DNA from: Chitinispirillales bacterium
GTDB lineage: Bacteria > Fibrobacterota > Chitinivibrionia > Chitinivibrionales > Chitinispirillaceae
Assembly (NCBI GenBank): GCA_031281485.1
Contig: JAITFI010000094.1
Span: 1-32,368, forward strand
Length of the DNA stretch: 32,368 nt
Direction: 5' to 3'
In this document: piece by piece, positions 230 through 27,094 of the stretch
Position numbering within the stretch: position 1 is the first letter of the stretch
How the letters are laid out: every line of letters starts with the position of its first letter
Position numbers and translations under genes: made by a program
Notes under the pieces: model-generated
The model's database searches: none
What the model was told of the DNA's origin: nothing
The model's input: the letters and a program-made list of their open reading frames with translations, nothing else

Positions 230-3200
230 ATGACCACTATCAGTACGGATAATACTATTGATACCGCCAATACCGTTCGCCGCGTTTATGTTGAGAAGCG
301 GCCTGAGTATGACGTCCACTCGGCTCGTTTGCTGACGGATTTGCGGGATAACCTCGGGATTTCGGGGCTTGACGGGGTTCGGACGCTTAACAGGTACGAC
401 GTGGAGGGGCTGACCGGCGATTACTACGCGGCGGCTCGGGACAGTATCTTCGCGGAGTTGCCGGTGGATTTGGTCTACGACGAGGAGATGCCCGTCCGTT
501 CCGGCGAGCGTGTTTTTGCCGTTGAGTATCTTCCTGGGCAGTACGACCAGCGGGCTGACGGGGCGGCGCAGTGCGTTCAGCTGTTGACGCACGCGGCGCC
601 GCCTAAGATCGCCTCGGCCCGTATTGTCGCCGTCAAGGGGGATATTGATGAGGATGATTTTAAGAGGATAAAGAGTTACTGCATCAACCCCGTTGACTCC
701 CGCGAGGCCTCGCTTGACAAACCTGTCAGCCTCGATATGCGAGCCGAATCGCCGCCGGACGTGGCGGTGCTGCGCGGGTTCGTTGATCTTGATAACGATG
801 GGATCGATAAGGTCAGGAAAGATCTCGGCTTGGCGATGAAGATCGAGGATTTGCTCTTTTGCCAACAATATTTTCGCGATACGGAGAAGCGCGACCCCAC
901 CATAACGGAGGTGCGCGTGCTTGATACATACTGGTCTGATCATTGCCGCCACACCACTTTTCTCACCGCCATAGAGGGCGTGGAGATAGAGGATACGGCG
1001 CTCAACGGCCCGGTCTGTACGGCGTTTGAGACCTATATGCGCGCCCGTGAGTTTATCTACGGCGACGACGCCGACGCGCGCGACATATCGCTGATGGATA
1101 TTGCGCTTATGGGTATGAGGGAGTTGCTGAAAAAGGGGGTTCTCAATGATTTGGACGCCTCCGACGAGGTGAACGCTTGCAGCATAGCGGTTCCCGCCGT
1201 TGTGGACGGCAAGGCGGAGGATTGGCTTGTGATGTTCAAGAACGAGACGCACAACCATCCCACCGAGATAGAGCCGTTGGGCGGCGCGGCGACCTGTTTG
1301 GGCGGCGCGATCCGCGATCCGCTTTCGGGGCGCTCCTACGTTTATCAGGCTATGCGGGTGACCGGGGCCGGCGACCCTCGCGCCGCGGTCGGCGACACGC
1401 TGCCGGGCAAGTTGCCGCAGCGCAAGATCACGACGCTCGCCGCGCAGGGGTACAGCTCTTACGGCAACCAGATCGGTCTCGCCACGGGCATTGTCTCCGA
1501 GGTGTACCACAAGGGTTACGTGGCCAAGCGTTTGGAGATAGGCGCGGTGGTCGGCGCCGTTCCCAAGTCGCACGTGGCGCGGCGCGAGCCCGAGGCCGGC
1601 GACGTCGTGGTGCTTCTCGGCGGCAGGACGGGGCGCGACGGGTGCGGCGGGGCGACGGGGTCGTCCAAGGAGCACACCGAGGAGTCGATACAGACTTGCG
1701 GCGCGGAGGTGCAGAAGGGCAACGCCCCCACCGAGCGCAAGATACAGCGGCTCTTCCGGGATCCGGAGGTCGGCAGGATGATCCGCCGTTGCAACGACTT
1801 CGGCGCGGGCGGGGTGGCCGTGGCCGTCGGCGAGCTGGCCGCCGGGCTTGATATTTATTTAGACGCCGTCCCCAAGAAGTACGAGGGGCTCGACGGGACG
1901 GAACTCGCCATCTCCGAGTCGCAGGAGCGCATGGCCGTTGTGATCAGTTCGTCGGATTTAAAAACTTTTCAGGCTAAGGCGGCCGGTGAGAATTTGGAGA
2001 CCGCCGTCGTCGCGACGGTGACGGACGCCGGCCGTCTCAGGATGTTCTGGCGGGAGACGGCGATCGTAGACATCAGCCGCGACTTTATAGACACGAACGG
2101 CGTATTGCAGAAAGCGGAGGTTTTTGTCAAGTCCCCGAAGGCGCTCTACCTGCCGAACGTATTGTCTATGACCTCTAAGTGCAGGGACGACGCCGGCGAC
2201 GTCGCGGGCGCTTTTTTTGATACGATGACGGACATCAACGCCTGCAGCCAGCGCGGTCTGAAGGAGATGTTCGACAGTTCCATAGGGGCCGGCACCGTGC
2301 TCATGCCCTTCGGCGGCAGGTACCAGCGGACGCCGGCGGAGGCGATGGTCGCGAAGTTGCCGGTGGCAAGCGGCGAGACGGTTACAGGAACGGCCATGAG
2401 CTACGGCTTCGACCCCTACCTCTCCTCTTGGAGCCCCTTCCACGGCGCGATTTACGCCGTGATCCAATCGGTGGCCAAAATAGTGGCGGCGGGCGGCGAT
2501 CACCGCAAGGCGCGCCTCACGTTGCAAGAGTATTTTGAGAAATTGGGAAGCGACAAAACGCGCTGGGGCAAGCCCTTCGCCGCCCTGCTCGGAGCGTATT
2601 ACGCGCAGGTTAAACTAGGCATCCCCGCGATAGGCGGCAAGGACAGCATGTCCGGCACGTTCAAAGACATGCACGTTCCGCCCACGCTTGTATCGTTCGC
2701 CCTCGCGCCGGTAGACGTAACAAAGGTAATATCGCCTGAGTTTAAGCGGATAGGCAGCGTGGTGGTCTTTGTGTCTATATGGGTTGACGAATTGGGAATG
2801 CCGGACTTCGAGGTGATTGACAAGTGCTACTCCGCGGTGCATGGCGGAATTGTCAACGGGCAGATTCTCTCTGTGCAAACGGTAGGGCGCGGCGGAATTT
2901 CGGAGGCCGTCGCCAAGATGTGTTTCGGGAACCGCATCGGCTTCAAGGTCGACGAGGGCGTCAACGCGGCGGAGCTCTTTAAACCCGATTACGCCGGATT
3001 GGTCGTTGAACTTGATAAAAGCGTAGATACGGATAGAAACGTTTTAGGTATCGGCGACAATTGCACTATTTTGGGAGTTACGATAGAGGAGAGAAAGATT
3101 GTTTGCCGTAACGCGCAGATTGACATTGATGAGCTGTACGAAAAGTGGGAGGGCGTCTTGGAGGGAGTTTTCCCGACGAGGGCGGGGACAGGGGAGTCGG

Positions 3201-4096
3201 GCGATAATATATATGAAAATTTGGGTGATGATATTAATGTTAATGCAAACACGAATGATCATTCATCATTTAAAAAAGCGAAGATAAAGGTTGCGAAGCC
3301 GCGTGTGCTGATACCCGTATTCCCCGGCATAAACTGCGAGTACGACAGCGCCCGTAAATTTGCCGAAGCCGGAGCGGAGTGCGATTTTTTTGTTTTTAAA
3401 AATATCAATCCGGGCGACATTGACGAGTCGGTGAAGATCATATCCGAAAAGATAGCGGCCTCTCAGATACTGATGATCCCCGGCGGCTTCAGCGCCGGCG
3501 ACGAGCCGGACGGCTCCGGTAAGTTCATTGCCGCCTTCTTTCGCAATCCGAGAGTGAAAGACGCCGTTTCGGAATTTTTGAATAACAGGGACGGATTGAT
3601 GCTGGGGATATGCAACGGCTTCCAAGCGCTTATCAAGTTGGGCCTTGTTCCGTACGGAGAGATTCGCGACCTTAAAGAGGACAGCCCCACGCTTACTTTT
3701 AATACGATAGGTCGGCACATATCAAGAATCGTATATACGAAGATCAGCTCCGTCAACTCCCCGTGGCTGTCAAACGTAAAAACAGGCGACATCCACGCCG
3801 TCCCCGTCTCCCACGGCGAGGGCCGCTTTGTGGCCCCGGTCGCCGAGATAAAAAAATTATTTATTAACGGGCAAGTGGCCGCGCAATACGTCAATTGCAA
3901 CGGAGAATACGAAGAGAGCATGGATGGCAACTGCAACGGCTCATACTGCGCGATAGAGGGAATACTCAGCCCCGACGGCCGTGTCTTCGGCAAAATGGGC
4001 CACAGCGAACGCATAGGGTGGAATAACGTGGCTAAAAATATTCATATTGATAAAGACCCTAAAATATTTGAAGCCGGGGTAGCATATTTTCTATAA
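230..4096 (+). CDS. purL: Phosphoribosylformylglycinamidine synthase, single-chain PurL
   Basis: This cytoplasmic enzyme of de novo purine synthesis converts FGAR, ATP and glutamine to FGAM. At 1288 aa it matches the long one-chain form in which the PurS-like, synthetase and glutaminase parts are fused. The N-terminal PurS-like part carries VRRVYVEKRPEYDV near residues 16-29. The linker motif LDTYWSDHCRHTTF is at about 231-244, and the synthetase motif NETHNHPTEIEPLGGAAT follows from about residue 337. The C-terminal class I glutaminase starts near 1025 (RVLIPVFPGINCEYD), with nucleophile Cys1128 in GICNGFQ and His1258/Glu1260 in GHSER. A low-complexity Asn/Asp-rich linker (about 985-1022) joins synthetase and glutaminase. 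There is no strong ribosome binding site before ATG 230, but no other in-frame start precedes the conserved VEKRPEYDV segment. The next gene starts 13 bp downstream with no terminator, so read-through into the TolQ-type operon is likely. Confidence 0.96.
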   Translation: MTTISTDNTIDTANTVRRVYVEKRPEYDVHSARLLTDLRDNLGISGLDGVRTLNRYDVEGLTGDYYAAARDSIFAELPVDLVYDEEMPVRSGERVFAVEYLPGQYDQRADGAAQCVQLLTHAAPPKIASARIVAVKGDIDEDDFKRIKSYCINPVDSREASLDKPVSLDMRAESPPDVAVLRGFVDLDNDGIDKVRKDLGLAMKIEDLLFCQQYFRDTEKRDPTITEVRVLDTYWSDHCRHTTFLTAIEGVEIEDTALNGPVCTAFETYMRAREFIYGDDADARDISLMDIALMGMRELLKKGVLNDLDASDEVNACSIAVPAVVDGKAEDWLVMFKNETHNHPTEIEPLGGAATCLGGAIRDPLSGRSYVYQAMRVTGAGDPRAAVGDTLPGKLPQRKITTLAAQGYSSYGNQIGLATGIVSEVYHKGYVAKRLEIGAVVGAVPKSHVARREPEAGDVVVLLGGRTGRDGCGGATGSSKEHTEESIQTCGAEVQKGNAPTERKIQRLFRDPEVGRMIRRCNDFGAGGVAVAVGELAAGLDIYLDAVPKKYEGLDGTELAISESQERMAVVISSSDLKTFQAKAAGENLETAVVATVTDAGRLRMFWRETAIVDISRDFIDTNGVLQKAEVFVKSPKALYLPNVLSMTSKCRDDAGDVAGAFFDTMTDINACSQRGLKEMFDSSIGAGTVLMPFGGRYQRTPAEAMVAKLPVASGETVTGTAMSYGFDPYLSSWSPFHGAIYAVIQSVAKIVAAGGDHRKARLTLQEYFEKLGSDKTRWGKPFAALLGAYYAQVKLGIPAIGGKDSMSGTFKDMHVPPTLVSFALAPVDVTKVISPEFKRIGSVVVFVSIWVDELGMPDFEVIDKCYSAVHGGIVNGQILSVQTVGRGGISEAVAKMCFGNRIGFKVDEGVNAAELFKPDYAGLVVELDKSVDTDRNVLGIGDNCTILGVTIEERKIVCRNAQIDIDELYEKWEGVLEGVFPTRAGTGESGDNIYENLGDDINVNANTNDHSSFKKAKIKVAKPRVLIPVFPGINCEYDSARKFAEAGAECDFFVFKNINPGDIDESVKIISEKIAASQILMIPGGFSAGDEPDGSGKFIAAFFRNPRVKDAVSEFLNNRDGLMLGICNGFQALIKLGLVPYGEIRDLKEDSPTLTFNTIGRHISRIVYTKISSVNSPWLSNVKTGDIHAVPVSHGEGRFVAPVAEIKKLFINGQVAAQYVNCNGEYEESMDGNCNGSYCAIEGILSPDGRVFGKMGHSERIGWNNVAKNIHIDKDPKIFEAGVAYFL

Positions 4097-4109: not shown

Positions 4110-4754
4110 ATGTCGCATTACATTGAACAGCTGGCGAACTGGTTCCGCTCCGGCGGCCCGTTCATGTGGGTACTGCTCTTTTTCTCCGCCTGCGCCGTCG
4201 CGGTGGCCATCGAGCGTATGATCTTCCTCTACTTCATCTGCCCCCGCGATACCTCCGGTCTCGTGGGCAAACTGAAGACCGCGGTGGGGGAGGGCAGGGG
4301 CGACGACGCCGTCAAGATGCTGCAAGGCAAGGGCTCGCCGACTTTGGCGCTGCTGCATATCGCCGTCGACAGTTTCAACGCCGGTTACACCTCCTCCGAC
4401 ATTCAGGAGGACGTGGAGGAGGCTGCGATAAGCCAGATTCACCGCTTCTCAGTGCGGCTGAACTATCTGTCCCTATTTGCCAATGTGTCGACATTGATAG
4501 GGCTCTTGGGGACGATAACCGGATTGATGCAGTCGTTCACGTCCTTAGCCAGCGTCGACGCCGCTCAAAAGGCTTCAATGTTAGCCTCCGGCATATCTCA
4601 GGCGATGATCACCACGGCGGCGGGGCTGATAATCGCCGTACCGTGTATGGTGGTCTATACCATCTTTTCCAATAGGCAGAGCGTGCTGGTAAAAGATTTG
4701 GATGAATCGACTGTAAAACTGTTGAACTTTATGAAGAAGAAAAAAGCTCAATAA
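4110..4754 (+). CDS. MotA/TolQ/ExbB-family proton channel subunit
   Basis: This 214-aa inner-membrane protein of the TolQ/ExbB/MotA family is the stator subunit that, with ExbD/TolR partners, couples proton flow to work across the envelope. Three membrane segments are visible at about 18-42, 120-143 and 163-187. The family signatures STLIGLLGTITGLMQSF (127-143) and AMITTAAGLIIAVP (165-178) are intact. The start is well supported by GGAGG at 4101-4105, four bases before the ATG. Its stop overlaps the next gene's ATG by one base (TAATG), so the two are translationally coupled. The gene order, one TolQ homologue followed by two ExbD homologues and a TonB-like protein, fits either a TonB system or an Agl-like motor. 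The sequence alone does not decide between ExbB, TolQ and AglR. Confidence 0.93.
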   Translation: MSHYIEQLANWFRSGGPFMWVLLFFSACAVAVAIERMIFLYFICPRDTSGLVGKLKTAVGEGRGDDAVKMLQGKGSPTLALLHIAVDSFNAGYTSSDIQEDVEEAAISQIHRFSVRLNYLSLFANVSTLIGLLGTITGLMQSFTSLASVDAAQKASMLASGISQAMITTAAGLIIAVPCMVVYTIFSNRQSVLVKDLDESTVKLLNFMKKKKAQ

Positions 4755-5248
4755 TGAGAAACCTTTCTTTATATAAGATGACCCGCCCGCCCTCCGAGAT
4801 GTCCGAGGCTGACGTTGACGTCACCCCGGTGATGAACATGTTCGTCATCCTCATCCCGTTCCTCGTCTCCATGGCCGTCTTCACGCAGGTGGCGATCATA
4901 GACTTCTCCGTCCCGCCCGACGCCGGACAGCCGGCCGCTCAGCCGGCGGGCAAGCCCAAGCTCAAGCTCACCGTCCTTTTGACGGAGACCTTTTTGGGTG
5001 TCGCCGAGGGGGAGAACCTGTTAGACTCCTTGCCGCTTTTAGCCAACGGGGAGTATGCCTTCGATTCTCTGAAGCAGGCGCTCATAGTCCGCCGCCCGCA
5101 GTCGGAGTTTCCGGACGAGATCGTCGTGGCGGTACGCGACGGCGTCGCTTTCAAGCACGCCGTTAAGGCTATGGACGTGGGCCGGGAGAGCGGCTTTACG
5201 AAGATCGGCGTCTCCGGCGCCGCTGCCGATCCGTCCGCGGGCAAGTGA
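4754..5248 (+). CDS. ExbD/TolR-family protein 1, membrane Asp replaced by Asn
   Basis: This 164-aa protein has the ExbD/TolR layout: a short cytoplasmic N-terminus, one membrane helix (about 27-45) and a periplasmic domain. The family motif at the start of the helix is normally TP-x-x-D, where the Asp carries the proton. Here it reads DVTPVMNMFVILIPFLV (22-38), so Asn28 sits at the Asp position and a Pro follows in mid-helix. The periplasmic part (50-164) starts with a Pro/Ala/Lys-rich stretch and ends in an ExbD-like fold with a DEIVVAVRDGVAFKHAVKAM segment. It overlaps the TolQ-type gene by one base and lies 10 bp before a second ExbD gene that keeps its Asp. The pair probably forms a mixed complex in which only the second subunit carries protons. 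Confidence 0.9.
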   Translation: MRNLSLYKMTRPPSEMSEADVDVTPVMNMFVILIPFLVSMAVFTQVAIIDFSVPPDAGQPAAQPAGKPKLKLTVLLTETFLGVAEGENLLDSLPLLANGEYAFDSLKQALIVRRPQSEFPDEIVVAVRDGVAFKHAVKAMDVGRESGFTKIGVSGAAADPSAGK

Positions 5249-5258
5249 GGGCGGCGCG

Positions 5259-5732
5259 ATGCGGTTATTATCTCGCAGAGACGACGGCCACGAGAGCGGC
5301 GGCGGGGTCTTCCGCCCCCAGATAACCTCGCTCGTCGACGTTATGACGATCCTCTTGGTCTTCCTGATAAAGAACTTCTCTGTGGACAGCGACGTGGTCT
5401 CGCCGCCGCCCAATGTCGAATTGCCGCTCTCCACATCACAAAAACCCGCCCAGCCGCGTTGCGCGGTCACTATCACCAAGGAGGAGATCATAGCCGGCGA
5501 TAGGGCGGTGGCGGCCACCGCCGACGTGGAAAAGAGCGACTCCTTGGTCATAGAGCCGCTGCGGGTCATGATGACGGCGCTGCTGCCGGGCTGCATGGTC
5601 GACGAGAACGGGTCGGTGGTCATACTCTGCGACAAGGACGTCAACTTCGCCGTGGTTAAAAAGGTCATGTCTACGTGCAGCAAGGCGGGCGTCGTAGACT
5701 ATTCCATATTAGTATTGAAAGAGGGCGACTGA
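5259..5732 (+). CDS. ExbD/TolR-family protein 2, proton-carrying Asp intact
   Basis: This 157-aa ExbD/TolR-type protein has one membrane helix near 25-40. The motif ITSLVDVMTILLVFLIKNF (22-40) contains Asp27 at the expected proton-carrying position, in contrast to its upstream partner. The periplasmic part (about 45-157) has ExbD-like strands, ending in a segment (DKDVNFAVVKKVMSTCSKAG) that matches the usual C-terminal helix region. The ATG follows a GAGGG stretch and comes 10 bp after the first ExbD gene; the TonB-like gene starts one base after its stop. The tight spacing supports one protein complex made from one channel subunit and two different ExbD chains. Confidence 0.92.
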   Translation: MRLLSRRDDGHESGGGVFRPQITSLVDVMTILLVFLIKNFSVDSDVVSPPPNVELPLSTSQKPAQPRCAVTITKEEIIAGDRAVAATADVEKSDSLVIEPLRVMMTALLPGCMVDENGSVVILCDKDVNFAVVKKVMSTCSKAGVVDYSILVLKEGD

Positions 5733-5733
5733 T

Positions 5734-6525
5734 ATGGACAGGCTATTCTCCGTCATATTGGCGCTGACCGTCGCCGTATTCTTTACGGTTGGCGCGGTCC
5801 TTTATAAGATGGGAAGGGGAGACCTGCTGCTCGACGCGAAGGATCCCGAGGCGATAAGGGCGTCGTTCGTTATGGATGAACAGAAGCCGAAGGCCAAAGA
5901 GGCGGAGAAGCCGAAACCCAAACCCAAGCCCGAGGAAAAGAAGAAGTCGGAAGAGATAATCCCCGTAAATTTGACCAATAAGCCGGAGCCCGTCAAAGAG
6001 GAGGTTAAGGAAGAGGTCAAAGAGGAGCTGAAGCCCGAACCCAAGCCGGTGCGGCAGGTTTACGGGTTAAAGAAGGTCTACTCGCAGGGCTTGGGCGCCG
6101 CCGGAGACGCCGGGGACGCCATCGTGGGCAAGTTGGGCAACACATTAAACAAAGCCTACGACACGCTGACCGCCACTGCCGACGACCTGAAAAAGAGGCC
6201 GGGGTCGGGTCAGGGCGGAACCGGACCCGTCTCCTCCGCCGCCTCGGTCACAAAGTACCCGCGTCTAAAGGCCGGCTTCCGCAGCCTGAAGCCCCAGTAC
6301 TCAAAGGAGATGCTCCAAAACCGCGTGGAGGGCGCTGTCAAGGCCAAATTATTGATCGCCTCCGACGGAACGGTGAAGCAGGTGGAGATACTTAGCGACA
6401 TAGGCTACGATTCGGGCGAGATAGCCAAGGCCTTTTTGATGACGCTGGAGTTCGAGCCGGCCATGAAGGGCGAGGAGGCGGTGTCGGTGTGGATACCGTT
6501 TTCCATACGGTTTGAATTGATATAA
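5734..6525 (+). CDS. TonB-like energy transducer
   Basis: This 263-aa protein has an N-terminal signal anchor (about 4-24). A long Lys/Pro/Glu-rich spacer (about 50-110, including KPKPKPEEKKK and several KEEVKEE units) could span the periplasm. The C-terminal domain (about 185-263) has the TonB features: VKAKLLIASDGTVKQVEIL, then a basic/hydrophobic helix and a final strand ending IPFSIRFEL. It begins one base after the second ExbD gene, so it is almost certainly part of the same transcript. In a TonB system it would pass energy to outer-membrane receptors, but none is encoded in the window. In Agl/Glt gliding machinery, proteins with a similar C-terminal domain connect motor and outer envelope. 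The role of this one cannot be fixed from sequence. Confidence 0.9.
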   Translation: MDRLFSVILALTVAVFFTVGAVLYKMGRGDLLLDAKDPEAIRASFVMDEQKPKAKEAEKPKPKPKPEEKKKSEEIIPVNLTNKPEPVKEEVKEEVKEELKPEPKPVRQVYGLKKVYSQGLGAAGDAGDAIVGKLGNTLNKAYDTLTATADDLKKRPGSGQGGTGPVSSAASVTKYPRLKAGFRSLKPQYSKEMLQNRVEGAVKAKLLIASDGTVKQVEILSDIGYDSGEIAKAFLMTLEFEPAMKGEEAVSVWIPFSIRFELI

Positions 6526-6649
6526 ATGATATAAATGTTGATTTTTTACAAAAATCTTCGCATTAAAAGTTTCCGCATATTATATTTATTATATTATATC
6601 GTATTCTATTATATAGTACTGTACCGTACCTCAATATATGGAGGCAAAT

Positions 6650-7486
6650 ATGCGTATAAACACCAACGTTCCGGCGATAAACGCCCAGCGCAACCTGACC
6701 GAGACCCTGCTCTCGGGCGCAAGTACCAAGCAGAAGCTTTCGAGCGCCCTGCGTATCAACAAGGCCGGCGACGACGCCGCGGGGCTCTCCATCTCCGAGA
6801 ATATGCGTGGGCAGATAGGCGGGCTGAACATGGCCTCCCGGAACTCCTCCGACACCGTGTCGCTCATCCAAACGGCGGAGGGCGCCCTCACCGAGTCGCA
6901 CTCCATCCTCCAGAGGATGCGGGAGCTCGCCGTCCAGTCGTCGAACGACACCTACACCGACGCCGACCGCAACGAGCTGCAGGCGGAGGTCAAGCAGTTG
7001 CAATCGGAGCTGACCCGCATCGGGAACACGACGGAGTTCAACACCAAGGCGCTCCTGAACGGCAGCGCGGGCGGCGCGGGGGATGAGCTTGGGGACGCGA
7101 TCATGACGCAGACGGGCGCCAACAGCGGCCAGAATATGTTTTTGGGGATAGGCGACATGCGCGCCGGGGCGCTTGGTGTGGAGGGGGTGAACGTCGGCAC
7201 GAGGAACGGCGCGGCGGCGGCCATAGCCACGCTCGACAGCGCCATAGAGGCGGTGTCTCACCAGCGCGGGACGCTCGGCGCGGTTCAAAACGGTTTGGAG
7301 CACACGGTCAGGAGCATAGACGTGGCGGCGGAGAACACGCAGGCCGCGGAGAGCAGGATAAGGGACGCGGATATGGCCAAAGCCGTGCTGGAAAACACGA
7401 GGAACAACATAATGCGGCAGGCCTCGTTGGCGATGGCCGCTCAGGCGAACCAAAAGCAGCAAAACGTCATGTCGCTGTTAAAATAA
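6650..7486 (+). CDS. fliC: Short flagellin (D0/D1 only)
   Basis: This 278-aa flagellin is made almost only of the conserved helical ends. The N-terminal part (1-135) begins MRINTNVPAINAQRNL and includes RINKAGDDAAGLSISENMRG. The C-terminal part (about 165-278) includes SHQRGTLGAVQNGLEHT and ends AQANQKQQNVMSLLK. The short middle leaves no room for D2/D3 surface domains. An in-frame ATG exists at 6638, but GGAGG at 6640-6644 lies five bases before ATG 6650, and the protein then begins with the standard flagellin MRIN; 6650 is therefore chosen. The 124-bp leader (6526-6649) is extremely AT-rich, and I could not pick a confident sigma-28 or sigma-54 promoter in it. A second, far longer flagellin lies at 17550-19814 on the other strand. 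Confidence 0.95.
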   Translation: MRINTNVPAINAQRNLTETLLSGASTKQKLSSALRINKAGDDAAGLSISENMRGQIGGLNMASRNSSDTVSLIQTAEGALTESHSILQRMRELAVQSSNDTYTDADRNELQAEVKQLQSELTRIGNTTEFNTKALLNGSAGGAGDELGDAIMTQTGANSGQNMFLGIGDMRAGALGVEGVNVGTRNGAAAAIATLDSAIEAVSHQRGTLGAVQNGLEHTVRSIDVAAENTQAAESRIRDADMAKAVLENTRNNIMRQASLAMAAQANQKQQNVMSLLK

Positions 7487-7623
7487 GGTTTTTTAACATT
7501 GCAAAAAATTAATTAAACACTTGCTATTTGTTTAGAATCAATATAAATTATATGTAGGCGTAATAGTGAAATCGCCGTTATCGCGGCAATAAACACTTAA
7601 TATTTGGCAGGAGAGGCAGGTCA

Positions 7624-9591
7624 ATGAACAAATTGCCCGTATTTTTGTGTCGCGCGGCCGTATATGCCGGTATGCTTGTTTTCAGCCTTGGCCTTGTCGG
7701 TAAAGTCTCCGCCCAAAGCGAGAGTGAGATCAACAGTCTGTTCGGCACCATGCAGGATGAGCCGGAGCAGAAAGAGGAGGCTGCGCCCAAGCGCGTGCTT
7801 CCGACGTATACCGGCAACTACAAGGTGCTCGTGAGCAGGCCGATCTACGCGGTCTACGAGGCCGAGACCAAGACCAAGTGGATATCCGCTCTTGGGGAGC
7901 TTTACACGCACTACAGGGTTGGGGCCTTTCCGCGTACGTACGTGTACACCATGGAGCAGGTGAGCGGCGTTCTGCCCGGTTCGCGTGACTACGGGCGCCG
8001 CTTCAACAAGCAGCAGTACATAGAAGCGGCCAAGAAATTGGGTGCCACGCACTTGTTGTATCAGGAGTACCAGCCGCAAAAGGACGGTAAACGCGCCCGC
8101 TACGTGATGGAGTTGTATTGGATAGCGGAGGCGGCCGCCGTGGAACGGAACTCCGTTGACATTCCGTACGCTGATTTTGAGGGCGGGCTGAACGCTTGTT
8201 TGAACAAGATAGCCGACGCGATGGATCCCAAGGCCAAGAGCGGCGGCGTCGCCGGGGTGCAGGTTTGGGGTAAGGACATGAAGACGCTTGAGGCGTTCGG
8301 CAACGCTTTGGCCGCGGAGGAGCGCTTTGTCAAGGACAGGGCCGAGGTTACTTACGCCGCCATAGAGAAGACGGTGCAGAAGAATTCGTCGCTGGTGGGT
8401 TTCCAGTATGCCGCCGCGCTTGTCGCCGGACGCGCCGAGGAGTACGCCAAAGCCGTCAAGCACATAGAAACGGTGATAAGCAAGTCGAAAGACTATCCGG
8501 CGTTGCAGTTGCGTTTGGCGGAGTATCAGAGGGGGGCGCAACGCTACTCGGAGGCTGTGAAAGCGGCCGAGACGGCGGCCAAGAAAGACGCTCTGAAGGT
8601 CGCCGCGTCCATAGAGATGGCCATGATATCGCAGGCGCAGGGAAACCTTGACAGAGCGCGTTCCGAGTACGAAGCCGTTCTCAGGGACGGCGAAGCGAAC
8701 AGCCGTGTGCTATTTATGCTCGCGCTCCTGAGCATCCAGATGGGACGGACAACGGAGAGCGAGGATTACCTGCGTCGCGCCGAGGAGAGCGGACTGACGC
8801 TCGACGAGGGCGAGTACTTAGACCTTGGCCGGGCCTACGCTAACTCAAGCGGGAACGAAGACAAGGCGGTCGAGTACTTTAAGAAGAGCATGGGCCCCAA
8901 GCAGAGCAACGAAGACGCTTGGGAGGCCATCGCCGATCTGTACAAGAAGATGGGGAACGACTTGGACGCCGCGGAATCCTACGTAAACCTATTTAAGATC
9001 AACATGAACGCGCACAGCGGAAAACTGAGGCTCGCCGGCGAGACCTTTGAGAAGATGGGTATGACGGATAAGGCGAAGGACGCCTACGCGCTCTTCTTGG
9101 ACAGGCGTTTTGCCGACAAGGACGTTTCCATGAATTTGGCCCGTATATATTTTAATGATAAGGATTGCAAAAAGGTGAAAGATGTTTTGGAGGGCATGAA
9201 GGGGTACGAGTCTGTGGCGGAGGCCACGCAGATGCTTGCCGACTGCGGGCTTAAGGTGCGTAAGGTAGACGAGTCTCAGACTATGAAGACGAAGAAACTG
9301 TCGCCGCTGATGTTGACGGCGAGGATATCGGGGGGGACGTTTCTTGTGGGAGGGATTACTACCGGGCTTCTTATGAATAGCTGGGTGAGCGGTACCAACA
9401 AGAAATATCAAGATTGGAAAGAGTGGGACGCGAAGTACGCTACGAAACCGGAGGACGCGGGCGACGCGTACAAACCTGCCAAGGTGAAGGAGATGAGGGA
9501 AGATATGGACTTTGGCATTGCTATGCGCAATACAATGTACGTCTTGGCGGGCGTGGGTTTGGCCGGTTTTGCTGTGACGTTCTTTTTCTAA
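7624..9591 (+). CDS. Exported TPR protein with TolB-like N-terminal domain
   Basis: This 655-aa protein has a signal peptide with a probable cut after Ala30 (KVSA/QSES). Residues about 45-205 resemble the TolB/CsgG-type N-terminal fold, including YIEAAKKLGATHLLYQEY. Residues about 245-545 are tetratricopeptide-like helical repeats (for example AAALVAGRAEEYAKAVKHIE and DLGRAYANSSGNEDKAVEYF). The C-terminus has two hydrophobic segments (about 565-585 and 636-655, ending GFAVTFFF), so the protein is probably membrane-attached at its C-terminus. ATG 7624 is preceded by a GGAGAGG ribosome site. The next gene follows after 12 bp, so the two form an operon. It is likely a scaffold in an envelope complex; no specific family name is recognised. 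Confidence 0.8.
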   Translation: MNKLPVFLCRAAVYAGMLVFSLGLVGKVSAQSESEINSLFGTMQDEPEQKEEAAPKRVLPTYTGNYKVLVSRPIYAVYEAETKTKWISALGELYTHYRVGAFPRTYVYTMEQVSGVLPGSRDYGRRFNKQQYIEAAKKLGATHLLYQEYQPQKDGKRARYVMELYWIAEAAAVERNSVDIPYADFEGGLNACLNKIADAMDPKAKSGGVAGVQVWGKDMKTLEAFGNALAAEERFVKDRAEVTYAAIEKTVQKNSSLVGFQYAAALVAGRAEEYAKAVKHIETVISKSKDYPALQLRLAEYQRGAQRYSEAVKAAETAAKKDALKVAASIEMAMISQAQGNLDRARSEYEAVLRDGEANSRVLFMLALLSIQMGRTTESEDYLRRAEESGLTLDEGEYLDLGRAYANSSGNEDKAVEYFKKSMGPKQSNEDAWEAIADLYKKMGNDLDAAESYVNLFKINMNAHSGKLRLAGETFEKMGMTDKAKDAYALFLDRRFADKDVSMNLARIYFNDKDCKKVKDVLEGMKGYESVAEATQMLADCGLKVRKVDESQTMKTKKLSPLMLTARISGGTFLVGGITTGLLMNSWVSGTNKKYQDWKEWDAKYATKPEDAGDAYKPAKVKEMREDMDFGIAMRNTMYVLAGVGLAGFAVTFFF

Positions 9592-9603
9592 CGGAGGAGC
9601 GGT

Positions 9604-11172
9604 ATGAAGAAAATAATGTCGATTATAGTGTTGGCTGCGTTGCTTACGGCGGCGCTGGTGGTCTTTGTTTGCGAGAGTCCCGAGTTCAACAATCCGCTTG
9701 ATGAGAAGGGGACTAATTTCTTGGAAAATAGGGACAGCGCGAAGGCGCACAAGGACGAAGCGCTTGCCACGGACGAGAACGGCGTGGCGATGTTTTGGGC
9801 CGATAATACGGAAAAGTTTCGTCCGAATTGCGACGACGTCACTCCGACAATTGCGCTCGTTGGAGCTAGTCAGATAAATATAAATACACAGCAAGTACAG
9901 GAGTTCAGGAAGTGGATGCACTTTGACGACGGGCAGTGGGCCGAACTCATCACTTGGGGAAAGGGGCCGAATGGAAAAACGGAACCGGTTCCTAAAGAGC
10001 CGTGCCTGAAAAGGGGTACCGGCGATTGTATGCAATTCAGCGCGCAAGAGAAGAACAGGACGCCTGATCCTAACAACTATATCATTGAGTATAAGGTTGA
10101 AAAGCCGCTGTGCCGAGGCGCGACGCCTTATGCCACGGTGAACAGAACGCTTAACGTAACACAGTTTATTGCTGTAGATACCGGAAGGCCGGTAATTACA
10201 GTGACCGGTGGCTTGACTGCCGAAGTTAGGGTGGGTAATACCTATACGGATATGGGAGCGACTGTTAACATTGGGCAGGGTGGTCCGACTAATCCCGGCG
10301 CGCTTGACAGCGTTGTGGTCAAGGGTACCAATTCAGGCAACACGTATAGCCAGACAGTGAGAAAACCGGCGGCCGGGTCAATTGATTTCACGTCTATTGT
10401 TGTTCCTACCACTACCGCCAATAGTACGTTCTCCATCACGTATTACGCGAGTTACAGAGGGAATGACAATGTGGTCAGAACCTCCACGGCGATTAGAAAC
10501 GTTAAGGTGTTGGAACAACAGCAAAGCAATGTGGCGCCGATAATTGTTCTCAAACCGTACAAGCTCAAGGTGCCGTCGAGCGGGAAGATTATTGATTATC
10601 CCGATACTATGATTTACTTATCTTCTGCGACGAATGACAGCTATAGAGAGAAGGGTGTCGACAGGGTTTATTACGTTAGCGGCGGGAATGAGACGACCGT
10701 ATGCTCCAACGGTTGCGACGGCGTGGTGACGACGACCCGGCAGCCGTCTTTCATAACCGGGCAAAACGACCCCGCAAGAAAGACTGTTACATATGAGATT
10801 CCCGCCGGTACCGGATACGCGAGCGGGGCTGCGACCAGGAACGTGTTTTTGGTGTACACGGAAGCGCAGTGCGTTGCGGACGAAATCGCGCCTGTGGCGC
10901 CTATTGTAAGGAAGGCTACCGCTACCGCCAGTAATCCTAACTCCGACACGATACCGGCCGGCGTGATTTGGAAATACGATGATACTTGGACGGTGACGCA
11001 TTCGAACGCTTTAGGGTCCGCCGGATTCAAGTACATGATAGATTTCAACGGATTGGACCCCTATAAACCAGTTCCGAAGTCCGGCGGCGGCGGTTACGAG
11101 ATAACCTACGTCGGTTTGGGCAAGTGCGGGGAGACGGCTGAGTTAAAGAGGACTATTTTTGTTAAGCCGTAA
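9604..11172 (+). CDS. Probable lipoprotein with bacterial Ig-like (DUF5011-type) domain
   Basis: This 522-aa exported protein begins with a hydrophobic signal that ends at Cys23 (VVFVCESPEFNNPLDEKGTN). The context suggests lipidation, although VFVC is not a classic lipobox. Residues about 192-300 resemble the DUF5011/HYR-type Ig-like fold, with RPVITVTGGLTAEVRVGNTY followed by TDMGATV. The rest is strand-rich and Cys-containing with no recognised domain. A GGAGGAG ribosome site precedes the ATG, and the upstream TPR gene ends 12 bp before it. Base composition between about 9840 and 10700 is visibly less GC-rich than in neighbouring genes, which may mean fast divergence or transfer. It is probably a surface or periplasmic partner of the TPR protein; the function is unknown. 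Confidence 0.72.
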   Translation: MKKIMSIIVLAALLTAALVVFVCESPEFNNPLDEKGTNFLENRDSAKAHKDEALATDENGVAMFWADNTEKFRPNCDDVTPTIALVGASQININTQQVQEFRKWMHFDDGQWAELITWGKGPNGKTEPVPKEPCLKRGTGDCMQFSAQEKNRTPDPNNYIIEYKVEKPLCRGATPYATVNRTLNVTQFIAVDTGRPVITVTGGLTAEVRVGNTYTDMGATVNIGQGGPTNPGALDSVVVKGTNSGNTYSQTVRKPAAGSIDFTSIVVPTTTANSTFSITYYASYRGNDNVVRTSTAIRNVKVLEQQQSNVAPIIVLKPYKLKVPSSGKIIDYPDTMIYLSSATNDSYREKGVDRVYYVSGGNETTVCSNGCDGVVTTTRQPSFITGQNDPARKTVTYEIPAGTGYASGAATRNVFLVYTEAQCVADEIAPVAPIVRKATATASNPNSDTIPAGVIWKYDDTWTVTHSNALGSAGFKYMIDFNGLDPYKPVPKSGGGGYEITYVGLGKCGETAELKRTIFVKP

Positions 11173-11235
11173 AATTTTTTTACAAAGCGGCGCGGCTAAT
11201 ATTAGTTTATATGTATATTATGTTGTATAGGGGGC

Positions 11236-11249
11236 GGCGACCCGTCGCC
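11236..11249. other. Small hairpin upstream of the beta-helix gene
   Basis: GGCGAC-CC-GTCGCC forms a perfect 6-bp stem in the 114-bp space between the lipoprotein gene and the first beta-helix gene. It is followed by CGCTTTCG rather than a T-run, so it is a poor match to a classic terminator. It could be a weak terminator or a 5' leader structure. Confidence 0.4.
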
Positions 11250-11286
11250 CGCTTTCGTATGAATGAAAATCGAAGAGGATTATTTA

Positions 11287-12171
11287 ATGCGCATCACCCG
11301 TTCAACGTTTCTGCCGCTACTCGCCGCGCTTTTCGTGACGGTTTTCGCCGTCGCGTCGCCGCTTTTCGCCGATGAGGTCGCCGTTGCCGCCGTTGCCGCC
11401 GTTGGGCCATCGCAGCAGGCCAAGGGGCCCGGCGCGGTGATCGTTGTGCCGTCGCAGCAGGCCAAGAGCATAGGCGCGGCCATGGTGGTCGCCCGGCCCG
11501 GCGATACTGTAAAGGTGGGGAACGGCATATATAGGGAGAAGGTTTTCCTTACGCCAGGCGTCGTGCTTATCTCGGATAAGCTCTTCGGGGCGGTGATTGA
11601 CGGGGGCGGCAAGGGGACGGTCGTGACTATGGGTAACTCGTCTGAGATATCGGGTTTTGAGGTGCGCGGCGGGACGGTCGGCATCTTTTCGTCCACGGCG
11701 CAGGCGGTGATCCGCCGGTGTCGGGTTATGCACAATGTTCAGAGCGGGGTGATGTGCGTTGGCACGCTGCCCAAGATGGAGGACAACTTCATCGTGTTCA
11801 ACAAAGGGTCGGGCGTGCAGGGGTGGGATGTGCGCACCACCAGCGGGTCGATAAACCACAACACCATAGCGTTCAACGCCAATCACGGGATATCGCTGGG
11901 TGGCAGCACCTCCATCACGGTCGAGAACAACATCATCGCTTTCAACGATCAGTTCGGGGTGAAGCCGGCTGAGGAGACGGTGCGCGTGGTGCTCATCAAC
12001 AACAATTTTTACCAGAATGCCAGAATTTCGAGCAATTTGCCTTCGGACAACATATCAGCCGACCCGCTTTTTGAGGATGCAAAGCGTTTCAACTTCAACC
12101 TTATGAAGGAGTCGCGCAGCATAGGGCTTGGGACGGATAATCAGAATTTGGGTTCGAGGATATTGCATTGA
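11287..12171 (+). CDS. Exported right-handed parallel beta-helix protein A
   Basis: This 294-aa protein starts with a clear signal peptide (MRITRSTFLPLLAALFVTVF, cut near SPLFA). The remainder is a pectate-lyase/NosD-like right-handed beta-helix. The opening rung motif ARPGDTVKVGNGIYREKVFL is followed by IDGGGKGTVV and by rungs of ISGFEVRGGTVGIF, GSINHNTIAFNANHGISLGG and ITVENNIIAFND. A frame-compatible ATG at 11263 exists, but ATG 11287 has GAAGAGGA eight bases upstream and directly starts the signal peptide, so it is preferred. Near residues 40-65 the SQQAK segment is duplicated (VGPSQQAK, then VVPSQQAK), a recent small tandem duplication. The next gene is a close paralogue. The function may be carbohydrate binding or a structural surface role; no catalytic motif was identified. 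Confidence 0.83.
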   Translation: MRITRSTFLPLLAALFVTVFAVASPLFADEVAVAAVAAVGPSQQAKGPGAVIVVPSQQAKSIGAAMVVARPGDTVKVGNGIYREKVFLTPGVVLISDKLFGAVIDGGGKGTVVTMGNSSEISGFEVRGGTVGIFSSTAQAVIRRCRVMHNVQSGVMCVGTLPKMEDNFIVFNKGSGVQGWDVRTTSGSINHNTIAFNANHGISLGGSTSITVENNIIAFNDQFGVKPAEETVRVVLINNNFYQNARISSNLPSDNISADPLFEDAKRFNFNLMKESRSIGLGTDNQNLGSRILH

Positions 12172-12208
12172 AAATAAAAGTCAAACCATACCTGACGGGA
12201 GTTTTGCC

Positions 12209-13018
12209 ATGAATATCAGAAACAGTATCGCCGCGGTGTTAGCGTGCGCGGCGTGCCTTGTCGGCGTGTCGTCCGCCGAGGTAATCGAAGTGCCGGGGCA
12301 GGCCAAGACCATCTCCGGAGCAATGATCACGGCGCGTATGGGGGATACCGTTAAGGTTGCGCCGGGTGTTTACCGGGAGCTTGTGATCATGGCTCCTGGC
12401 GTGTTCCTCATTTCGACGTCGCTCTTTGACGCGAAGATCGACGGCGGCGGCCGGGGGACGGTCGTCACCATGTCAAAGAACTGCTCCATCTTCGGCTTTG
12501 AGATTACGAACGGCACGATCGGAATATTTTCCAGCGACATGGGCAACGAGATAGCCTCCTGCCGCATCGTGAACAATTGGATGACCGGCATCATCACGGT
12601 GCGCCACCTGCCCAAGATCCAAGACAACATTATCGCCTTCAATCGCGCGTCGGGCATACAAGGGTGGGACGTGCGCTCCACCGCGGCCACGGTGAACCAC
12701 AACTCCATAGCCTACAACGGCAACCACGGCATCGCTATCGGCGGTACGTCGGAGTTCATTATCGAGAACAATGTTATCGCGTTCAACGAGAAGTTCGGGC
12801 TTAAAATATTGGAGGCGCCGGAGAAGATTCAGGTCAGCGCCAACAATTTCTGGCGCAATCTGTACCAGCCGGGAAAGCCGCTTCCGGAGAACAACTTTGC
12901 CTTTGATCCGGCGTTTATCGCTCCGCGTTCCGGCCTGAACTTCAAGCCGGATCCCGGTCAGTGCTGTAAGTCTAAAGGGTCGGACGACGAAAACATTGGC
13001 GCAAGGCTGAACTATTAA
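12209..13018 (+). CDS. Exported right-handed parallel beta-helix protein B (paralogue of A)
   Basis: This 269-aa paralogue of the preceding protein aligns with it along its whole length: ARMGDTVKVAPGVYRELVIM, IDGGGRGTVVTMSKNCSI, GIQGWDVRSTAATVNHNSIA, NHGIAIGGTSEFIIENNVIA. The signal peptide is MNIRNSIAAVLACAACLVGV with a cut near VSSA. ATG 12209 is preceded by GACGGGA at 12194-12200. An upstream in-frame ATG at 12128 would overlap the previous gene and hide the signal peptide, so it is rejected. The intergenic gap to protein A is 37 bp, which suggests a tandem duplication transcribed together. The C-terminus carries a CC pair (GQCCKSKG) absent from protein A. Confidence 0.83.
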   Translation: MNIRNSIAAVLACAACLVGVSSAEVIEVPGQAKTISGAMITARMGDTVKVAPGVYRELVIMAPGVFLISTSLFDAKIDGGGRGTVVTMSKNCSIFGFEITNGTIGIFSSDMGNEIASCRIVNNWMTGIITVRHLPKIQDNIIAFNRASGIQGWDVRSTAATVNHNSIAYNGNHGIAIGGTSEFIIENNVIAFNEKFGLKILEAPEKIQVSANNFWRNLYQPGKPLPENNFAFDPAFIAPRSGLNFKPDPGQCCKSKGSDDENIGARLNY

Positions 13019-13052
13019 CAAAAAATTGATAAATCTAAGGGACGGGACGTAT

Positions 13053-15398
13053 ATGATGAGATTTTTTAAAAGCAGGATCGCAAGGTTCAAACTGGCGTTG
13101 GCCGCCGTCGGATTGATGGCCGTTGCAACGCAGGTGTGGGCGCAGAATGGCGGTTTGCCCGGCGGACACATTATCACAGACCGTTGGCGCCATGTGTACT
13201 CCCAGTATTCGGGCATAACGAACGCGGCGTTTATTAACGAGGAAAACTACATGTCGCTGCGATTCCTCTTCGCCAGCACGCTGGAGACGTTCTATACGCA
13301 GGAGGCCGGCTTCACAATGCCGATAGGCCTCTACGACGCGGCCGGCGTGTCATGGATCATGAACGGTACTTCGAGTTACGCGGCTACCAACGATACAGGC
13401 GGCCTGACCGGTAAAAACGTTGTCGACCAGGGCCACTTCATAGCCTTGACTTACGCGAACAATGTGTGGAAAGGGTTGACTGTCGGCGGTAACTTAAACA
13501 TCATAGCGCAAAGCGTCCCGGAGGGCGCCGGCAGCGCCAACAACGATACGAAGACCGCCACGAGGTTGGGTTTCGGCGTGGACGTCGGTCTCACATACAA
13601 AGTACTGCGCCACCAATTGTTGGGCAACCACATACTCGGTCTCGCTACGAACAACATTTTCAATATGATAATGGACGAAACCGACGAAAGGTTCGCCTCG
13701 GCGCTGCGCATTTCGTTGCTCTCCGACTTTTGGGAGAGGCGTATCTACTTCGGCGCGGACTTTGTCCTGAAAGATATCCTCGTCGGCGACGCTGATAGGA
13801 CGCCGAACTCTGTGGCGACGATGCCGTGGGAGAATACCTATAAAGTAGGCACCAATATTCTGCGTATCTTCAAGCTGTACGGGCTCGTCGGCTTCAACAA
13901 CGAGGGGATTGACCACTACGGGTTCGCTTTCGGCGCGAATATGCCGGGTTTCTTCAACGGCCGCGACATAGAGGGTATGATGCAGTTCGTCTCCATAGTC
14001 AACCCAACGGACGGCGTGGAGGAGGCCAACGCGAGCCACATAACGTTCTATGCCCGCACGGAGCTCGGAAAGCACAGGGAAGAGATATATGCCCGCAGGA
14101 TGGCCCGCCGCGGAACGCTCGGGCCCAACAACTTGTACAACCAAGCGCTCGACTTGTACTACAAGGGCGAGTACTACCGCGCTTACTGGATCTTCTCGCA
14201 GATCGCGGTGGAGTACCCCGACTTTTTCCGCAACGACATGGTCAGCTACTACCAAGGCGCTTGTATAGAGGGTATGGATATGCGCCAGAGCGCGGTCATG
14301 GCCTTCAAGCGCACCAAAGAGGAGCACTCGCGCAGCGTGGCCGTGCCGATGGCCGACTTGGGGTTGATGCGCGTCTTCTACAGAAGCGGCGACCTCGCGG
14401 CGGTGGAGAGCCAGTTTGAGGAGCTCAACGCCTTGGGCGTTCCCGACTCCATCAAGTACCACGCCTATTATATAATGGGTCAGGCCACAATGCAGCGCGG
14501 CGATTACCAAAAGGCGCGGCAGCTCTTCACAATGATTCCCGAAAACCACCCGGACTACGTGTTCGCGTATCACGCGGCGGCGGTGGCTAACGCAATGGCC
14601 GAAGACTATCAGGGCGCAATAGCCGACCTGGAATTCGTCATCCAAATCAAGCCCAAGAACAAGGCGCAGGAGGAGGCCATAAACCGCTCCTACGTCTTCC
14701 TGGGATTCCTGTATTACGAAGATCTCTCCACCGAAGGCGCGCTGGCCAGAGCGGTAACGGCGCTCCGAAAGGTGCCCAAGAACAGCTACTACTACCAAGA
14801 CGCGCTCTTGGGTCTCGGCTGGACAGGTCTGAAAGCGCGGCAGTGGAACGATTGCCAAAGCGCCGGCGCGGAGTTGGCCAAGGTATCCACCGACCCCGTC
14901 CTCCAAAGCGAGGGCAACCTGTTGCAAGCCTATGCGTATGCAATGCAGAAGAACTACAATCAGGCGGTCAGCCTGCTCGAAGAGGCCAGCAAGAGAATGG
15001 CGGCATACTCCGGCCCGAGCGAAGCTGATTTGGCCGCCAGCCGTAACGAGTACGAGAATGTAAGGAGCGACTACGAGAGCATGGGCGTCAGAATAGACGA
15101 ACTGGGTCAGGCGCGTCAATCGTCCGTAATCCAATCGTCGATCGACAGCCTCCAGGCTCCGCAGGCCAAGAACAAGACGTCCATCGACCAGCACTTTAAG
15201 TTTGAGGACGAGTTCAAACGCAAGACCTTCTTCAACCGCGAGAGCGCGCAGGTGAAGGAAGACATAGACTTCGCCATGGCGCGGTTCGCGAGGTACGCGG
15301 GTTCGTCGGGCGCCAGGGACGCGATCAAGAAGTCCGGCGGCGGGGCGATTGACGATGAGATTGAGAAGCTCAAGAAGGAGTTGGAGAAGGCGAAATAA
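13053..15398 (+). CDS. Outer-membrane barrel-type protein with C-terminal TPR array
   Basis: This 781-aa protein has a signal peptide ending QVWA/QNGG (around residue 30). Residues about 40-330 alternate polar and hydrophobic residues and are Gly/aromatic-rich (FTMPIGLYDAAGVSWIMNGT, GVDVGLTYKV, RIYFGADFVLKDILVG), resembling PorV/UPF0164-type outer-membrane barrels. Residues about 355-660 form TPR-like repeats (LYNQALDLYYKGEYYRAYWI, YIMGQATMQRGDYQKARQLF). The end (665-781) is a charged coiled-coil-like helix. An upstream in-frame TTG (13026) is rejected because AAGGGA at 13038-13043 serves ATG 13053, which leads into the signal peptide; ATG 13056 is an alternative. The gene begins 34 bp after beta-helix B. 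It is probably the outer-membrane anchor of the exported set at 7.6-15.4 kb. The barrel assignment is by pattern and not certain. Confidence 0.75.
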   Translation: MMRFFKSRIARFKLALAAVGLMAVATQVWAQNGGLPGGHIITDRWRHVYSQYSGITNAAFINEENYMSLRFLFASTLETFYTQEAGFTMPIGLYDAAGVSWIMNGTSSYAATNDTGGLTGKNVVDQGHFIALTYANNVWKGLTVGGNLNIIAQSVPEGAGSANNDTKTATRLGFGVDVGLTYKVLRHQLLGNHILGLATNNIFNMIMDETDERFASALRISLLSDFWERRIYFGADFVLKDILVGDADRTPNSVATMPWENTYKVGTNILRIFKLYGLVGFNNEGIDHYGFAFGANMPGFFNGRDIEGMMQFVSIVNPTDGVEEANASHITFYARTELGKHREEIYARRMARRGTLGPNNLYNQALDLYYKGEYYRAYWIFSQIAVEYPDFFRNDMVSYYQGACIEGMDMRQSAVMAFKRTKEEHSRSVAVPMADLGLMRVFYRSGDLAAVESQFEELNALGVPDSIKYHAYYIMGQATMQRGDYQKARQLFTMIPENHPDYVFAYHAAAVANAMAEDYQGAIADLEFVIQIKPKNKAQEEAINRSYVFLGFLYYEDLSTEGALARAVTALRKVPKNSYYYQDALLGLGWTGLKARQWNDCQSAGAELAKVSTDPVLQSEGNLLQAYAYAMQKNYNQAVSLLEEASKRMAAYSGPSEADLAASRNEYENVRSDYESMGVRIDELGQARQSSVIQSSIDSLQAPQAKNKTSIDQHFKFEDEFKRKTFFNRESAQVKEDIDFAMARFARYAGSSGARDAIKKSGGGAIDDEIEKLKKELEKAK

Positions 15399-24582: not shown

Positions 24583-24613
24583 CGCTTTTCATTGTATTGG
24601 GGGGGCATAGGCA

Positions 24614-25087
24614 ATGGGCGAACTGCAACACCTATTAGAACGCGGCTGTATATATATCGCGACCGGCGAAGGCGCCGTTCAAACGGTATTGGGCAGTTGC
24701 GTCTCGGTGTGCCTGTGGGATGCGGAGGCGCATTGCGGCGGGATGAACCACTTCATCTACCCGCAGACTATGCGCAAGGAACAGGCGACGCCTAAGTACG
24801 GAAACGTGGCCACGATGGCGCTGATCAAGCTTATGTGCGAGGAGGGTTGCAACGTAAGCAGCCTTACGGCCCACATAATAGGGGGCGGCCATCCCGACGG
24901 CGCCACGGACAGCACGGGCATGAAAAACGTAGAGGTCGCCAGAAAGATTTTGAACGAAAAAGGAATAACCATAATGTCGGAAGACGTGGGCGGCAGGGTC
25001 GGGCGTAAGGTGGTATTCGACTTGTCTACCGGTCAGGTGGCGGTATTGAAAGTTATGAAATTGCGGGCGGAAGATTGGATTAATTGA
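24614..25087 (+). CDS. cheD: CheD-type receptor glutamine deamidase (copy 1)
   Basis: This 157-aa CheD-family protein belongs to the enzymes that deamidate receptor glutamines and, in some bacteria, act with CheC. The nucleophile Cys29 lies in VLGSCVSVCLWD and the catalytic His46 in GGMNHFIYP, 17 residues later as in known CheD proteins. The usual Thr six residues before the Cys is Gln23 here, with Thr24 adjacent. A GGGGGG run serves as ribosome site upstream of ATG 24614. It begins 31 bp after cheA. A second CheD follows cheR. Confidence 0.92.
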   Translation: MGELQHLLERGCIYIATGEGAVQTVLGSCVSVCLWDAEAHCGGMNHFIYPQTMRKEQATPKYGNVATMALIKLMCEEGCNVSSLTAHIIGGGHPDGATDSTGMKNVEVARKILNEKGITIMSEDVGGRVGRKVVFDLSTGQVAVLKVMKLRAEDWIN

Positions 25088-25113
25088 TTTTATGATTGCC
25101 TTTATGTTATAAT
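25084..25113 (+). promoter_or_regulatory. Possible housekeeping promoter upstream of cheR
   Basis: TTGATT (25084-25089), an 18-base spacer and TATAAT (25108-25113), with TG at 25105-25106 giving an extended -10. It begins in the last codon of the first cheD and lies about 70 bp before the cheR start. It would let cheR and the following genes be expressed apart from cheA. Confidence 0.5.
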
Positions 25114-25185
25114 TATATACATATTAGGTAAGAGATACCGGCAATAAAAAGAAAGATCAAAGCGAATAGGGAGGGGGAACCTGCT

Positions 25186-26605: not shown

Positions 26606-26620
26606 TTAGGAGCTGTGACA

Positions 26621-27061: not shown

Positions 27062-27094
27062 CAAGCCCATGCGCGACGCCATTGAATAGTTATT

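Follow-up and report, generated by a model that had tools for sequence, protein, structure and literature searches.

An Agl-clade motor with an aspartate-less ExbD subunit and a probable role in TonB-dependent transport in Chitinispirillales

Introduction

In current models, a 5:2 motor has two equivalent aspartate residues that alternate in proton binding. One motor of interest in this respect is AglRQS of Myxococcus xanthus, which works with Glt in gliding and with Nfs at the spore coat. It comprises one channel protein and two ExbD/TolR-type proteins, and AglR, AglQ and AglS have lengths of 245, 162 and 194 aa, respectively (PMC3169522). The D28N replacement in AglQ abolished proton conductance and paralyzed the machinery (PMC3858216), and a review lists as unknown whether AglQ and AglS assemble as homodimers or as heterodimers (PMC9389320).

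Tandem exbD genes are also found in TonB systems. In the Ton-Oar system of M. xanthus, TonB1-ExbB1-ExbD1-ExbD2 is encoded with the TonB-dependent transporter (TBDT) Oar (PMC6434023), and Xanthomonas campestris and Flavobacterium psychrophilum have TonB-ExbB-ExbD1-ExbD2 loci, which we liken to the present locus from the literature and not by sequence (PMC3551730). Such TonB systems show that one channel gene plus two exbD genes is by itself not an Agl signature; a sequence-only reading of the locus described here had drawn on this gene set, among other features, for a possible Agl-like motor. TonB and TolA grip their motors by a mid-helix His/SHLS motif, which is essential (PMC12204202).

Here we describe a four-gene locus of a Chitinispirillales bacterium that shares features with both kinds of system.

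Materials and methods

The window, 32,368 nucleotides in length, is a whole contig (C81) of a MAG of 2.28 Mb that is 68% complete. With the ExbD1 protein as a query, orthologues were found throughout the order and beyond, and 40 loci were examined. T1 designates loci with the fixed order ExbB-ExbD1-ExbD2-TonB, and T2 and T3 designate two paralogous motors of the phylum. The genus of the window is referred to as g1 and its sister genus as g4. Genes behind TonB were counted at the 25 T1 loci outside g1 and g4 at which 4 kb or more of sequence follows TonB.

References for ExbBD, TolQR and MotAB of Escherichia coli were taken from strain MG1655. For Myxococcota, a Myxococcus MglA sequence was used solely as bait; it led to named genomes, from which the ExbB family was collected. 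The AglRQS reference was recognized by the published lengths of its three proteins. The resulting ExbB reference set was small, consisting of Myxococcota, E. coli and a few plasmid records. The latter, used as a sample of other phyla, yielded distant ExbB matches only, of which one, on a Vibrio plasmid, was useful. For one record (L110; BNCN01000011.1), the title Comamonas sp. KCTC 72670 looks wrong: this 9.0-Mb genome contains AglRQS in full and an MglA that shares 99% identity with the Myxococcus bait.

Results

The sequence-only reading had noted one TolQ-type gene, two ExbD-type genes and a TonB-like gene in tight coupling, and the open reading frames and Pfam matches confirmed this (Table 1). 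The last base of ExbB is also the first of ExbD1, and gaps of 10 bp and 1 bp separate ExbD1 from ExbD2 and ExbD2 from TonB, respectively. Because this gene order is conserved across the phylum, the set is not a product of chance. The purL gene, which ends 13 bp upstream of ExbB and adjoins the motor operon also in two other genomes of the genus (G002 and G004), is possibly cotranscribed with the motor genes. In the assembly, the only two ExbD matches were ExbD1 and ExbD2 of the window, and the only MotA/ExbB-family proteins were the window ExbB and MotA, the latter a 256-aa protein encoded beside a MotB-like protein. The window ExbB retains the threonines equivalent to T148 and T181 of E. coli ExbB and has Gln at the position of E176. 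Both threonines of the ring are invariant, and the Glu176 equivalent varies in T1.

Table 1. Coordinates of the motor locus and of adjacent features in the window
Feature	Position	Strand	Remarks
purL	230-4096	+	Not part of the machine
ExbB/TolQ-type channel protein, 214 aa	4110-4754	+	AglR clade; Pfam MotA_ExbB, E 2.6e-27
ExbD1, 164 aa	4754-5248	+	AglQ-type, Asn28 for the transmembrane Asp; Pfam ExbD/TolR, E 1.1e-12
Codon AAC, Asn28 of ExbD1	4835-4837	+	Aligns with ExbD D25, TolR D23 and AglQ D28
ExbD2, 157 aa	5259-5732	+	AglS-type, transmembrane Asp27 retained; Pfam ExbD/TolR, E 5.3e-12
Codon GAC, Asp27 of ExbD2	5337-5339	+	Sole protonatable ExbD-helix Asp in the set
TonB, 263 aa	5734-6525	+	One TM helix, Pro/Lys/Glu-rich linker, C-terminal TonB_C; Pfam TonB_C, E 9.1e-12
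TonB_C domain of TonB	6292-6519	+	
Flagellin, TPR protein, Ig-type lipoprotein, two beta-helix proteins, TPR-containing protein	6638-15398	+	Not part of the machine
Flagellin	6638-7486	+	First gene of the downstream envelope run

In the ExbB trees, the window protein grouped with the T2 and T3 proteins, AglR, the Myxococcus M2 paralogue and the Vibrio plasmid homologue. This clade was split from Ton-Oar, TolQ and E. coli ExbB with support of 98/96 (97/97 after addition of T3), and T1 and T2 were each monophyletic in the tree that included T3. In the approximately unbiased (AU) test, T1 and T2 ExbB could be placed neither with the Ton-Oar type (p = 3.6e-4) nor with ExbB/TolQ of E. coli (p = 1.6e-15); both topologies were rejected. 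Placement of T1 and T2 inside or beside AglR and M2 gave p values of 0.46 and 0.17; owing to long, deep branches, the branching order within the Agl clade is unsure. In the ExbD tree, the union of AglQ-type and AglS-type proteins was separated from ExbD/TolR (100/95). ExbD2 grouped with AglS (93/73, within a 96/82 clade), and ExbD1 with AglQ on a weak branch (93/51) within a 98/83 clade. These trees support a one-to-one correspondence, by sequence, of ExbB to AglR, ExbD1 to AglQ and ExbD2 to AglS. As the sequence-only reading had surmised, all three subunits thus fall into the AglRQS clade; neither ExbB nor the ExbD proteins fell into the TolQR or classical ExbBD clades.

A Tol-Pal-like system that stabilizes the envelope is hardly credible. 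Although TolQ was the best NCBIfam model for ExbB, its score was far under the cut-off, and the AU test speaks against a grouping with TolQ. Moreover, a separate TolQ-TolR locus followed by TolA- and TolB-like genes is present in three relatives (G002, G004 and G007), and tolB and pal are absent beside the motor at the locus.

Alignment of the two ExbD proteins revealed an unexpected feature, which the sequence-only reading had not mentioned. At the position of E. coli ExbD D25 and TolR D23, ExbD1 has Asn28 and ExbD2 has Asp27; TPVMN and TPFID align here without gaps. The pattern extends over the three paralogous motors of the phylum: Asp was absent from 56/56 AglQ-type subunits (53 Asn, 2 Gly, 1 Ala) and present in 53/53 AglS-type subunits. 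At T1 and T2 loci, Asn was found in 41/41 ExbD1 and Asp in 38/38 ExbD2 proteins. Five further loci, four of them T2-like (family f11) and one T1 (f13), likewise pair a first ExbD with Asn and a second ExbD with Asp. The ten T3 loci have Asn (7), Gly (2) or Ala (1) in the first ExbD and Asp throughout in the second. At 30 Myxococcota AglR loci, on the other hand, Asp was present in 30/30 AglQ-type proteins and in all 29 AglS-type proteins found. In the Vibrio plasmid homologue, Ser stands in place of the Asp of the first ExbD, and the second ExbD has Asp. This homologue is part of an Agl-type set on the Vibrio alginolyticus plasmid pMBL96 (L237, positions 5995 to 7530), located beside beta-barrel and transglutaminase-like genes. 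An acidic residue that might compensate for Asn28 was sought nearby; residue 22, although Asp in the majority of relatives, is Asn in some and is therefore not fixed. An Asp-less ExbD in such pairs was not found in the literature searched, which lacked most subscription papers, so that this result proves little.

Since an ExbD1 homodimer would be devoid of a proton-binding residue, ExbD1 either pairs with ExbD2 or sits outside the axle. In the latter case, the locus would encode an ordinary TonB energizer with an ExbD2 homodimer as its axle, and ExbD1 would be an accessory protein (in assembly, regulation or peptidoglycan contact) whose Asp was lost because the protein was never a proton carrier in the pore. 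The strict distribution of Asp, always absent from ExbD1 and always present in ExbD2, agrees with such a division of labor, and in Xanthomonas exbD2 is dispensable for iron uptake, showing that tandem ExbDs can divide tasks (PMC3551730). However, the pore helix of ExbD1 is well conserved (TPxMN and a hydrophobic run) and in register with that of AglQ, whose Asp28 is essential in Myxococcus, and none of the three paralogous motors has dispensed with either ExbD. We therefore regard an ExbD2 homodimer as unlikely. Given the conserved pore helix, pairing of ExbD1 with ExbD2 appears the simpler option, and the Asp pattern predicts an obligate ExbD1-ExbD2 heterodimer with a single proton carrier.

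The output arm differs between the paralogous motors. The T1 arm is of the TonB_C type, and the T2 and T3 arms match the GltG/AgmX-PglI tail. With the GltG/AgmX-type model NF033768, the window TonB gave an E value of 0.005 and 16.9 bits (cut-off 40); the T3 arm of L251 matched NF033760 with an E value of 1e-35. The TonB-like linker of the sequence-only reading is thus a TonB with a TonB_C domain, by Pfam and NCBIfam, and not a GltG/AgmX-type protein. It has the C-terminal TonB_C domain and the single N-terminal TM helix of TonB systems. By eye, the mid-helix His/SHLS motif was absent from the T1 TonB helices, and the T2 arms do have the His. Since the T1 TonB lacks this motif, its coupling to the motor must differ from that described for TonB and TolA. 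The distribution of arms indicates that, in a single phylum, this motor clade has been fitted with distinct arms according to the target.

The T2 arm (AgmX/PglI type) is encoded inside a polysaccharide locus with Wza/SLBB and Wzc-kinase genes (L057-L060, L285-L287 and L289), in a manner that resembles the Nfs/Exo pairing of Myxococcus. By analogy with this paralogue, T1 could be a motor for polysaccharide export or envelope assembly. However, no export genes were seen as conserved neighbors of T1, and T1 and T2 differ in their arms and are each monophyletic, making such a function very improbable.

T3 is a third Agl-like locus, found phylum-wide (L248, L249, L250, L251, L252, L253, L254, L290, L291 and L292). 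It encodes ExbB, an Asp-less ExbD of 261 to 319 aa, an Asp-bearing ExbD of 163 to 167 aa, a GltG-like arm, large TPR proteins and a PopA-porin-like protein. Sibling genomes carry this locus, but it was not found in the 68% complete MAG of the window. For Glt-like gliding or surface transport, T3 is a better candidate in this phylum than T1.

We then turn to the genes behind TonB. Outside g1 and g4, TonB is followed by F4, a TonB-dependent receptor of approximately 950 aa, and then by F5, a putative lipoprotein of approximately 390 aa without a Pfam match. F4 was located within 3 kb past TonB at 23/25 T1 loci (21 genomes), in 22 cases on the same strand; the two loci without F4 in this range were L054 and L062. 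The domain order of F4 is N-terminal TonB_C, carboxypeptidase-like domain, TonB box, Plug and receptor barrel. The nearly invariant sequence [YF]E[IL]VVYG[KR] directly before the plug reads as the TonB box. The N-terminal TonB_C domain is shared with MxcH-type receptors (NCBIfam NF038079), but only the first 90 or so positions of that model match, and the score is far under the equivalog cut-off. A TonB_C domain ahead of the TonB box and plug was observed in the receptor at L045 (positions 8012 to 10861) and in 34 related receptors, nearly all of which have a putative lipoprotein gene beside them. The receptor's own TonB_C domain could pair with the C terminus of TonB.

The F4-F5 pair of g1 and g4 is located apart from the motor (L097 to L104). 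All seven other genomes of the window's genus carry an F4 relative. In the MAG of the window, neither an F4 relative nor a Plug match was found, which fits the incompleteness of this assembly. The statement of the sequence-only reading that there is no TonB-dependent receptor is thus correct for the window and for the 68% complete MAG, but would mislead about the organism, to judge from the homologous receptor in 7/7 other genomes of the genus. The orthologous TonB is retained in G005 and G006, where it lies at a contig end. In several MAGs the contig ends within exbD1 or exbD2; we attach no meaning to this, as by a rough estimate it is about as frequent as expected from fragmented assemblies.

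The sequence-only reading had also pointed to a run of envelope proteins downstream and had proposed, as an alternative to nutrient uptake, a force-generating machine that spans the envelope. On this view, the motor would serve gliding, adhesion or transport of the spore-coat kind, and the proteins encoded downstream would form the outer parts of the machine. The run is indeed present, starting with a flagellin gene. Within the genus, however, flagellin and TPR genes follow T1 only in G007 (L108), a very close relative. The motor's neighbors differ from those of the window in G001, G005, G006 and G010; a divergent FecCD-type permease (by eye) lies behind T1 in G001 and an InlB-repeat protein in G005. 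The TPR protein (positions 7624 to 9591) has orthologues on other contigs in G002, G004, G005, G006, G010 and G019. Since adjacency is confined to G007 and the TPR orthologues are elsewhere, the envelope run does not belong to the machine. After inspection of the neighbors in G001, G005 to G007, G010 and G019, we dropped a functional link between the motor and the flagellin, TPR and beta-helix genes. In related genomes it is the TonB-dependent receptor, and not the envelope genes, that is conserved next to the motor. The placement of the motor subunits in the AglRQS clade and the TPR and surface proteins downstream in the window do speak for a force-generating machine. Against these stand the TonB_C type of the arm, the GltG/AgmX type being found in T2 and T3 instead, the lack of conservation of the downstream genes beside the motor, and the receptor as the conserved neighbor in other genera. 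We conclude that gliding or a related surface function of this motor is quite unlikely.

Discussion

The locus works most like a Ton system, and its motor is a member of the Agl clade without being an AglRQS machine. With M. xanthus AglRQS it shares one channel protein and two ExbD/TolR-type proteins in one-to-one orthology, the gene order, the conserved Thr residues of the pentamer and the Asp of the AglS-type subunit. It differs in having Asn28 instead of Asp28 in the AglQ-type subunit and TonB instead of GltG/NfsG as the output protein, and in the TonB-dependent receptor as the partner in relatives; furthermore, no Glt model scored above the cut-off in the window and no conserved glt/nfs linkage was seen at the loci of relatives. 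Since AglQ Asp28, the GltG arm and the glt/nfs linkage are all lacking, we do not assign the locus to the AglRQS machines. Like Ton-Oar (PMC6434023), it combines TonB with one ExbB and two ExbDs and, in relatives, is encoded with a TBDT that bears an N-terminal extension. Unlike in Ton-Oar, the motor subunits belong to another clade and TonB is not the first gene; also, the Oar-type ExbD helices aligned here keep the Asp that ExbD1 lacks. By its motor clade and by the missing His motif of its TonB, the locus is not a classical Ton system either.

On balance, we consider it probable that this Agl-clade motor drives TonB-dependent transport and not gliding, and what it powers is most likely a nutrient-type outer membrane receptor. 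The sequence-only reading was thus right about the branch of the motor, as borne out by the trees and AU tests, and probably mistaken about the load, given the TonB arm and the receptor neighbor in 21 genomes. What counts against our interpretation is that the receptor is not beside the motor in the window or its genus and was not seen in the incomplete MAG, and that the T1 TonB is devoid of the His/SHLS motif. The long, deep branches and the small ExbB reference set also weigh against it. In addition, to our knowledge, the characterized members of the Agl motor clade move surface complexes and not receptors.

We infer the following mechanism. A proton-driven motor of the 5:2 type would act as the TonB energizer, its ExbB pentamer enclosing an axle, most likely in the form of an obligate ExbD1-ExbD2 heterodimer. 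Owing to Asn at the proton-binding position of ExbD1, all proton transfer would proceed via Asp27 of ExbD2, with one carrier per axle rather than two. The motor would move TonB, whose C-terminal domain would reach the outer membrane and open the cognate receptor for import of its cargo. The receptor may work together with the putative lipoprotein encoded beside it, and the pair would have moved away from the motor operon in the genus of the window.

That in one phylum AglQ-type subunits never have the Asp and AglS-type subunits always have it argues for heterodimers and is relevant to how AglQ and AglS dimerize (PMC9389320). The window ExbD1 carries by nature the very replacement that, introduced as AglQ D28N, paralyzes the Myxococcus motor. 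As an idea with slightly less than even odds, we entertain a phylum with three paralogous rotary-type motors, each with an obligate heterodimeric axle and a single proton-binding Asp on one helix, in which the replacement lethal to the Myxococcus motor (AglQ D28N) would have become fixed in nature and one of the motors would be wired to TonB-dependent transport. A natural one-Asp motor would be available for structural and single-molecule work. Moreover, the Agl motor lineage would not be tied to gliding, being coupled also to TonB and a receptor.

Of the two flagellin genes of the window, one opens the downstream run on the plus strand (Table 1), and the other, at positions 17550 to 19814 on the minus strand, encodes a protein of 754 aa with a large central insertion. 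A chemotaxis cluster at positions 21994 to 28729 comprises CheA, two CheD-like, CheR and CheB types (open reading frames assigned by eye). Past this cluster, genes of the polyphosphate kinase (28736 to 30889) and Ppx/GppA (31004 to 31954) types are located on the minus strand.
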